In this document: positions 55,627-57,803 of the stretch, in pieces
Layout of the letters: each line of letters begins with the position of its first letter
How positions within the stretch are numbered: position 1 is the first letter of the stretch
Assembly (NCBI RefSeq): GCF_947179015.1
Contig: NZ_CAMXCM010000002.1
Location: 124,001 to 188,000, forward strand
Reading direction: 5' to 3'
Source: Commensalibacter communis
GTDB taxonomy: Bacteria > Pseudomonadota > Alphaproteobacteria > Acetobacterales > Acetobacteraceae
Length of the DNA: 64,000 bases
The notes under the pieces: generated by a model
The model's database searches: none
Seen by the model: only the letters and a program-made list of their open reading frames with translations
Told to the model about the DNA's origin: nothing
Made by a program: the position numbers and the translations under genes

Positions 55627-56691
55627 TTATTTCAAATTACGAACTGTGTTTACCAATTCATAAACATGCTCAACAGGTGTAGTTGGAAGAACGCCATGTC
55701 CAAGATTAAGGATATGAGGTCTGTTTTTTAATTCAACACATAAATTATGAATTTCTTGTTTCAAAATATTTTGATTATGCAATAAACACAAAGGATCGAT
55801 ATTCCCTTGAAAACCAATTTTCTGATCAATTGTTTTATTTAATACAGAAATATCTGCTGTTTGATCAATACCAATTGTTTGTAAACCTGTTCCATCAATA
55901 TAAGATTGTAGTTTTGTTCCTGCCAATCTTGGAAAGCCAATAATAGGTATATGAGGATATTTACTTTTAACAATATTAACAATTTGACGCGTGGGTTGTA
56001 CAACATACTGATCAAATAAAGTTACAGAAAGTAATCCGCCCCAACTATCAAACAATTTAACAGCTTCAGCACCAGCTTCAATTTGTCTACATAAATAATC
56101 AGCGGTTGTTTGCGTAAGCAAATCAATAATTTTTCCAAATAAAGACGGATTTTCGTACATCATTTTAAATACAGTTGAAAAATCTTTAGAACTTCCCCCT
56201 TCAACCATATAACATGCTACTGTAAAAGGTGATCCTGTGAATCCAATCAGCGTTACTGATTGTGCTGCTGCTGTTCCAATAGTGTCTGGACTATTTACAA
56301 TTTTATTTAATCGTCGAATAGCCTCTAAAACAGGTTCTGTTTTTTCAATAGCATGTTGAGCATTTAACTTGTGGAAATCTTGCTCGGATTGAATAGGAGG
56401 TAAAACAGGACCTTTTCCTTCAACGAATTTTAAATCTTGTCCCAAAGCCCAAGGTAAAATTAAAATATCTGAAAATAAAATAGCAGCATCAAAAGCAAAA
56501 CGTCGAATAGGTTGTAATGTAATTTCTACGGCAATATCAGGGGTTAAACATCGTGTAAGAAAGTCAGCTTGTTGTCGTAACAATCTAAATTCTGGTAAAT
56601 ATCTTCCTGCTTGTCGCATTAACCAAACCGGTGGAGGCCAAACAGATTGGCCATTTAAGACTGTTAATAATTTTTTGTTTGTTGACAACAT
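55627..56691 (-). CDS. hemE: Uroporphyrinogen decarboxylase HemE
   Basis: HemE decarboxylates uroporphyrinogen III to coproporphyrinogen III. The 354-residue protein shows PPVWLMRQAGRYLPEFR near the N-terminus, FSDILILPWALG, IGFTGSPFTVACYMVEGG and the LGHGVLPTTPVEHV end. It leads hemE, a HAD phosphatase, hemJ and a dehydratase. Its promoter must lie in the 445-bp upstream region that I propose as the replication origin, an arrangement known next to hemE in other alphaproteobacteria. Confidence 0.96.
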   Translation of the reverse strand: MLSTNKKLLTVLNGQSVWPPPVWLMRQAGRYLPEFRLLRQQADFLTRCLTPDIAVEITLQPIRRFAFDAAILFSDILILPWALGQDLKFVEGKGPVLPPIQSEQDFHKLNAQHAIEKTEPVLEAIRRLNKIVNSPDTIGTAAAQSVTLIGFTGSPFTVACYMVEGGSSKDFSTVFKMMYENPSLFGKIIDLLTQTTADYLCRQIEAGAEAVKLFDSWGGLLSVTLFDQYVVQPTRQIVNIVKSKYPHIPIIGFPRLAGTKLQSYIDGTGLQTIGIDQTADISVLNKTIDQKIGFQGNIDPLCLLHNQNILKQEIHNLCVELKNRPHILNLGHGVLPTTPVEHVYELVNTVRNLK

Positions 56692-57136
56692 TAAAAAAAA
56701 CTTTCTGTTAATTTCTTTCTATTTTCAGAGTGTATCAAAAGTTTTCCATTTTTACATTCCCTTTAAAATAAAAAGAAAATTTAAAATTTATAGTGTTTGT
56801 TTATTGTTCCCTGTTAGTACTGTGGTACCCAGCTTTCAAAAAATGTACCCCATTTTTATCACAGAGTGTACAGTTTTTAATCAATTGTTTTTATTGGGTA
56901 AAATAGAGTTATCCAGATATTATCACCCTACCCCTGTGTACAACTCACTGAATTTAAAAAAGAGAGTACAATCCCCAGTACTAGGTACCCTTATGATTAT
57001 AGGGTCGTACAATCCCCATGTACCTCAGTGTACCACAGGGTAAAAACAAGTTATACTTTTGAATAAAAATGCAAGAATCGATTTTATGATTTAAAATGAA
57101 AAGCCAGACTGAATCTTAAAATCAAAGGATGAAAAG
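56692..57136. other. Candidate chromosomal replication origin (oriC)
   Basis: This 445-bp region has no credible gene; the 122-codon frame at 56675-57043 starts in hemE and looks non-coding. Bases 56817-57033 hold eleven GTAC tetramers. TTATCCAGA (56909-56917) differs from the DnaA box TTATCCACA at one base, and TGTGTACAA (56936-56944) is the complement of a one-mismatch TTATNCACA site. An A/T-only stretch near 56761-56790 could unwind. Origins in Caulobacter, Rickettsia and Sinorhizobium lie beside hemE. The call is inference from these together. Confidence 0.5.
56966..57018 (+). repeat. Direct repeats of GTACAATCCCCA
   Basis: The 12-mer GTACAATCCCCA occurs at 56966-56977 and 57007-57018, 41 bp apart, each followed closely by further GTAC sites (56978, 56985; 57020, 57030). 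The repeat units look like iterated protein-binding sites in the hemE-upstream region. Confidence 0.8.
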
Positions 57137-57577
57137 ATGAATATTAAAAGAATTAACTATTACAAAGCAGCCCCTCAGATGATGAAAGCAATGATGGATC
57201 TTGAAAATGCAACACATGAATCTGTTTTGCCTATTTTATTGAGAGAGTTGGTTAAGATAAGAGCGTCACAGCTAAATCATTGTGCATTTTGTTTAAATAT
57301 GCATACCAAAGATGCTTTAAAAGCAGGTGAAGATATTCATCGATTAATGGCTATCAGTGTATGGAAAGAAAGCCGTTTATTTACCGATCGTGAACGTGCT
57401 GCATTATTATGGACGGAAACATTAACCTTATTATCAGAAAAAGAAGCATCAGATGAAATTTATCAGCAAGTTTCTACGCACTTTAATGACCAAGAATTAG
57501 CAGAATTAAGCGTAGTCATTGCAGTCATTAATGCTTGGAACAGGTTTGGCGTTGGTTTTGCGATGCAGCCTGAATAA
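57137..57577 (+). CDS. AhpD-like carboxymuconolactone decarboxylase family protein
   Basis: This 146-residue helical protein has the redox motif C49-A-F-C52 with His56 (HCAFCLNMH), the hallmark of alkylhydroperoxidase-type members of this family, and LLRELVKIRASQ just before. Such proteins reduce peroxides or have related thiol chemistry. The start ATG follows AAAGGATG, a good ribosome site. It lies at the right edge of the candidate origin, transcribed away from it. Confidence 0.85.
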   Translation: MNIKRINYYKAAPQMMKAMMDLENATHESVLPILLRELVKIRASQLNHCAFCLNMHTKDALKAGEDIHRLMAISVWKESRLFTDRERAALLWTETLTLLSEKEASDEIYQQVSTHFNDQELAELSVVIAVINAWNRFGVGFAMQPE

Positions 57578-57687: not shown

Positions 57688-57763
57688 GGGGTCATAGCTC
57701 AGTTGGGAGAGCGTCTGGATGGCATTCAGAAGGCCAGGGGTTCGATTCCCCTTGACTCCACCA
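57688..57763 (+). tRNA. tRNA-Ala (anticodon GGC), CCA encoded
   Basis: The 76-base cloverleaf is complete: acceptor stem GGGGTCA with TGACTCC, D-stem GCTC with GAGC, anticodon stem TCTGG with TCAGA around loop ATGGCAT (anticodon GGC), T-stem AGGGG with CCCCT around TTCGATT, and encoded ACCA. The GGC anticodon reads GCC and GCU alanine codons. It is next to the disrupted CHAT-like gene, and tRNA genes are common integration sites. Confidence 0.97.
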
Positions 57764-57803
57764 AATAAACTGAAATAAATGTTTATTTATTTAAAAAGAA
57801 AAA

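Follow-up and report, generated by a model that had tools for sequence, protein, structure and literature searches.

Why does the tetramer GTAC, which is rather rare in the surrounding DNA, occur eleven times within 217 bp of an intergenic region next to hemE, in a Commensalibacter-type member of the Acetobacteraceae? The original prediction was that the region is a candidate replication origin (oriC), and that the GTAC sites may bind an unknown origin or initiation factor. The cluster was analyzed within a 64-kb stretch of DNA, hereafter the window, and compared with the rest of the genome and with the genomes of the family. The region is very probably the place where chromosome replication starts, and the sites are most likely the substrate of a conserved orphan methyltransferase, though a binding protein is not excluded.

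A cluster of GTAC palindromes in the intergenic region next to hemE

The features of the locus, given in window positions, are the following.

55627-56691, minus strand: hemE, uroporphyrinogen decarboxylase (an ORF named according to the original prediction)
56692-57136: intergenic region, very probably the replication origin (oriC)
56755-56809: A+T-rich stretch (82%), candidate unwinding element on the basis of composition only
56776-56792: longest A/T-only run, 17 bp
56817-57033: array of eleven GTAC palindromes, starting at 56817, 56825, 56845, 56868, 56938, 56966, 56978, 56985, 57007, 57020 and 57030
56825-56941: core of four GTAC sites (56825, 56845, 56868, 56938), used as search pattern
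56978-57023: further conserved GTAC sites (56978, 56985, 57007, 57020)
56909-56917, plus strand: DnaA-box-like TTATCCAGA
56935-56943, minus strand: DnaA-box-like TTGTACACA (TGTGTACAA on the plus strand), containing a GTAC site
57137-57577, plus strand: carboxymuconolactone decarboxylase family gene (Pfam PF02627, E 5.5e-21)

The sequence just right of the latter gene (57690-57765) reads by eye like a tRNA gene. Matches to hemE were found in 37 of 40 genomes.

The cluster is real. GTAC occurs 82 times in the window, less than the mean of 106.9 in shuffled sequences. None of 20,000 first-order Markov copies of the 445-bp region had more than 6 GTAC in a 217-bp span, and the densest span of this length elsewhere in 400 kb of the 411-kb contig has 4. 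In the whole genome, three GTAC with gaps of at most 30 bases occur at nine overlapping places, seven of which are in the array. The control pattern (CATG triples, the word read backwards) occurs 104 times, and thus says nothing for the array. Of the two other places, one is at C1:133940, the second (C1:450942-450985) lies between small ORFs which look mobile by eye, one of them resembling an excisionase-type helix-turn-helix protein. The two DnaA-box-like words are each one mismatch from TTWTNCACA on one strand. The region has no perfect box, and five with one mismatch.

The array marks the replication origin

Over 400 kb of the contig hosting the window the minimum of the cumulative GC skew is at contig position 181036 (window position 57036), 3 bp past the last GTAC of the array, which ends at 181033. 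Two single-contig relatives, G008 and G021, were sampled with 20 stretches of 20 kb, and in both skew changes from negative to positive in the interval holding the array. The flip is between 0 and 98 kb in G008, where the array is at 24 kb, and between 540 and 675 kb in G021, where the array is at 611 kb. A hemE flank as origin position is known from Caulobacter and Rickettsia (PMC1914354). Yet, the hemE flank is not essential. In two further genomes, G124 and G056, the array lies 20 and 26 kb from hemE, and the skew minimum stays with the array (41988, against array 42204 and hemE 61931, in G124; 58875, against array 59534 and hemE 85578, in G056, the latter computed on 100 of 275 kb of the contig). 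The array, not hemE, marks the origin. Though skew was analyzed in 400 kb of a draft genome and in sampled relatives, rather than over a full genome, we regard the assignment as very probable. Interestingly, dnaA lies almost opposite the array origin in several array genomes, 0.495, 0.50, 0.46 and 0.47 of the circle or main contig away in G008 (C1:994840-996282), G021 (C1:1964900-1966336), G069 (C1:656708-658072) and G093 (C1:64-1443), respectively, and less so in G083 (0.35). In G008 and G021 this is near the terminus by skew.

Conservation of the array in Acetobacteraceae

All nine members of the genus searched have 10 to 12 GTAC within 700 bp upstream of hemE, at nearly the same spacing. 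A pattern of four GTAC derived from the core, three at exact spacing and the fourth within a 26-base range, occurs once in each of 106 of 397 Acetobacteraceae genomes, distributed among 24 of 102 genera, and the reversed control is 0 in every genome. The number is a lower bound, since at least two array variants (G231, G202) are missed by the pattern. Arrays were aligned for 62 of the 106 genomes (63 loci, one genome being represented twice), and 62 distinct arrays were compared. The four pattern sites are kept by construction, but sites 56978, 56985, 57007 and 57020, which are not in the pattern, are kept in 56, 56, 50 and 61 arrays, respectively. In contrast, sites 56817, 56966 and 57030 are kept only in 11, 29 and 9. 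Yet the total stays near twelve (mean 11.5, median 12, range 6 to 15 per about 405 bp), nearly five times the next palindromic tetramer, CATG, at 2.4. Such turnover of single sites fits a count of sites better than fixed protein docking alone, but the base-exact spacing is more than a count of sites needs, and points to bound proteins too. TTATCC is found in the column of TTATCCAGA in 51 of 62 arrays, and TGTGTACAA in 62 of 62, largely by construction of the pattern. The array is a precise sequence signature for oriC in this group, including drafts where hemE has moved away.

A candidate partner methyltransferase

The genome hosting the window (G000) has two PF01555 matches. One looks like CcrM by eye, the second is a 290 aa protein encoded at G000:C3:153753-154622, outside the window. 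The latter matches PF01555 with E 7.2e-46, and PF02086 (D12 class) only at 19.1 bits, under the cut-off of 22. ORFs in its neighbourhood look by eye like hemC, hemD, secB, Tim44 and mltA, with no nuclease evident. A nuclease of phage Syn19, described below, finds no relative (tblastn, E up to 1) in the enzyme neighbourhoods of ten pattern genomes. The enzyme is thus regarded as an orphan, though other nuclease families were not searched. Matches to the enzyme at E 1e-40 or better were found in 170 of 397 family genomes, which include 106 of the 106 pattern genomes and 64 of the 291 others. The 106 genomes share ancestry, and do not represent 106 independent events, and other methyltransferase families (PF02086, PF00145, PF07669 and others) were not searched in the array genomes. 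In six array-negative genomes (G018, G165, G090, G132, G087, G303) the enzyme gene lies 3 to 9 kb from hemE; in 17 others the two are on different contigs. The enzyme is present in named Acetobacter, Gluconobacter, Gluconacetobacter, Komagataeibacter, Asaia and Bombella genomes; that these strains also carry the array is inferred from the unnamed family genomes.

Does the enzyme track GTAC beyond the array clade? Thirty of the 64 enzyme-positive, pattern-negative genomes and 30 of the 227 enzyme-negative genomes were chosen by hand, and hemE was found in 27 and 29 of them, respectively. In 420 bp upstream of hemE, the 27 enzyme-positive genomes have 59 GTAC where 22.3 are expected (45 against 20.0 in 25 genomes, when the two array variants are excluded), the 29 enzyme-negative genomes 17 where 14.0 are expected. 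Several of the latter keep one to three GTAC, which could be remnants, or reflect an older role.

Three genomes, G089, G053 and G139, lack both the enzyme (at E 1e-40) and the pattern. They have 0, 1 and 0 GTAC in 1,500 bp upstream of hemE, but 11, 3 and 4 perfect DnaA boxes in 450 bp. In a tree of 30 hand-picked rpoB sequences they fall inside a group of eight with five array bearers (SH-aLRT 100), though the tree was made by a quick method, without bootstrap, and is midpoint rooted on a long row. In a tree of 47 hand-picked hemE sequences G089 and G053 fall inside the array clade (support 100/98), but the two outgroup sequences fall inside the rest of the family, and the deep order is poor. 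A tree of 33 hand-picked DnaA sequences, from which G010 and G231 were left out because of partial matches, disagrees for G053 and G139. These fall outside all others on a very long branch (stem 7.05), and G089 falls beside array bearers, but is also a long branch (4.07), the median end branch being 0.42. DnaA evolves very fast or was replaced in these lineages. Array and enzyme have plausibly been lost jointly, in one or two events rather than three.

Predicted specificity of the enzyme

Motif IV is TSPPYN in 39 of 39 homologs compared, against ADPPYN in the CcrM sequence, and SPPY probably suits N4-cytosine enzymes. The best PDB match is named a DNA cytosine-N4 methyltransferase (8s9n, E 6.6e-16), and CcrM, PvuII, MboIIA and RsrI enzymes follow. 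A homolog in Synechococcus phage Syn19 (43.6% identity) overlaps a gene deposited as R.RsaI endonuclease (Syn19_153); other listed cyanophages show the methyltransferase with no nuclease name among the features under the match. ORFs related to the Syn19 nuclease (phmmer E 5e-5 and 1e-4 among 4,363 ORFs; none was found by tblastn) lie directly downstream of homologs in a Caulobacteraceae genome (L129) and an Acetobacteraceae MAG (L131), 2 of 80 named loci. M.RsaI makes GTAC m4C in Rhodobacter blasticus 28/5 (PMC6256690). The stretch between motifs VIII and X, taken here as the specificity region, is 46-63% identical between the window genome enzyme and 24 homologs outside the acetic-acid group, higher than the preceding part in all 24, though the part after it is as high in a few.

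These data support GTAC specificity only indirectly. The RsaI label is one depositor's, and the inference rests on it and on relationship at 44-56% identity. Pfam and NCBIfam do not recognise the nuclease, while PADLOC matches it to a type II restriction enzyme model (E 1.6e-11). In a tree of 41 hand-picked homologs Syn19 and the L129/L131 group fall in separate groups, neither inside the acetic-acid group, but the order of these groups is not resolved, and the acetic-acid group itself has weak support (86/0). Homologs at 47-51% identity to the query are found in Archaea, Acidobacteria and Armatimonadetes. Archaeal taxa holding homologs also carry AGCT and CGCG m4C enzymes, and archaeal orphan m4C enzymes include AGCT and CGCG as well as GTAC ones (PMC10609329); relatives may therefore differ in specificity.

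A model for the array

According to the view we favour, and hold with fair confidence as a whole, the array is the target of the orphan enzyme, predicted to be an N4-cytosine methyltransferase of the M.RsaI kind. When the origin is copied, the dozen or so clustered sites are hemimethylated together. With the orphan enzyme restoring the second strand later, the block is a timer, a local mark which, by analogy with Dam/GATC at E. coli oriC, would delay or gate DnaA-driven re-initiation, through a reader protein not yet identified, or by direct effects on DnaA at the GTAC-containing box TTGTACACA. GTAC specificity, m4C chemistry, methylation in the cell and control of initiation are all inferred, no methylome of a pattern-bearing species having been seen. 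That GTAC is methylated by this enzyme is likely, that methylation controls initiation only slightly more likely than not. In B. cenocepacia, mutants lacking origin-site methylases showed no growth difference in exponential phase (PMC7364216). The fixed spacing suggests that proteins sit between or over the sites. GANTC, plausibly the CcrM site, is also present, twice in the region and at least once in 58 of 62 arrays (mean 2.65), and CcrM could act here as well. More tentatively, acetic acid bacteria may have evolved an N4-cytosine counterpart of the Dam/SeqA replication clock, in which a fixed array of about twelve GTAC sites is hemimethylated as a block at each initiation and read by an unknown protein, beside the CcrM/GANTC system, and lineages which lost the methylase may have rebuilt their origins with canonical DnaA boxes.

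Alternative explanations

The GTAC words could be the core of binding sites for a sequence-specific origin protein, an initiator helper or repressor, methylation being incidental or absent. The spacing of the core is conserved over 24 genera, and some flanks (GGGGTACCC, GTACCCC, CTGTGTACAA, CCCATGTACCCC) are conserved. Yet, flanks differ from site to site, and no shared word longer than GTAC is evident. Three sites are poorly kept while the total stays near 12, and array and methyltransferase occur and are missing together. We consider this hypothesis unlikely, though the likeliest of the alternatives.

Even less likely, the GTAC-containing words could be diverged DnaA boxes, and the array an ordinary DnaA box cluster with altered consensus. 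TTGTACACA is indeed one mismatch from the box, and array origins average 4.05 one-mismatch boxes per about 405 bp, against 1.96 and 1.93 in the two other groups, but only 0.24 perfect boxes, while the three array-less, enzyme-less genomes have several. However, most GTAC sites (for example GGGTACCC and ATGTACCCC) do not resemble the box, and the DnaA segment DHTTVMHA reads by eye the same in the eleven DnaA ends inspected, with and without array. Family members without array also have few perfect boxes (mean 0.40 in 25 and 0.48 in 27, G231 and G202 being left out of the first group, G089 and G053 out of the second), and this lack is not special to the array.

That the array is a leader RNA or promoter element of hemE is very unlikely. 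It lies directly upstream of hemE in the window genome and in the other genus members searched, but is displaced from hemE, together with the skew minimum, in G124 and G056. No Rfam match was found up to E 1, and the predicted RNA fold is weak (z-score -1.79, 7 of 200 shuffles fold as well). Chance or compositional clustering, for which nothing speaks beyond the shortness of the word, is refuted by the Markov copies and by conservation in 106 genomes.

Comparison with known systems

M.RsaI, a restriction-modification enzyme (PMC6256690), is predicted to share its site with the enzyme described here, and a nuclease overlapping a distant homolog is deposited as R.RsaI. The Caulobacter-type origin with CtrA sites (PMC1914354) has a similar position beside hemE, but no TTAA-N7-TTAA, the presumed full CtrA site, half-sites not being scored, occurs in the region or in any of 62 arrays. 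Burkholderia cenocepacia origins (PMC7364216) carry orphan-enzyme motifs in and near them, CACAG and GTWWAC, the latter a similar palindrome. In that case methylation is on adenine, and GTWWAC positions differ between replicons, with no fixed array described in the parts of the paper examined.

Clusters of orphan methyltransferase motifs in non-coding DNA at putative origins, tracking the presence of the enzyme, have been reported for GATC, for TTAA in Arthrobacter, CTCGAG in Nocardia, and an m4C motif of Haloarchaea, printed m4CATG in the text and CTAG in the figure legend (PMC4752239). Motif, clade and enzyme are different here, the core spacing is fixed, and a joint loss is seen; neither GTAC nor Acetobacter occurs in the main text of that paper. 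No report on GTAC methylation, or on an origin array in acetic acid bacteria, was noticed among the listed hits of searches restricted to the open literature.

A close parallel is the gammaproteobacterial oriC, where hemimethylated GATC lets SeqA sequester the E. coli origin and prevent re-initiation (PMC7364216). In both cases a dense cluster of one 4-bp palindrome lies inside oriC, and cluster and orphan methyltransferase co-occur across genomes (PMC4752239). The site is GTAC rather than GATC, which is absent from the region, the predicted mark m4C rather than m6A, and the enzyme a PF01555 protein. No SeqA homolog has been identified, none having been searched for. The system would add a methylation-marked origin in Alphaproteobacteria, known in principle, and apparently new in motif, clade, predicted chemistry for a bacterium, fixed spacing and joint loss.
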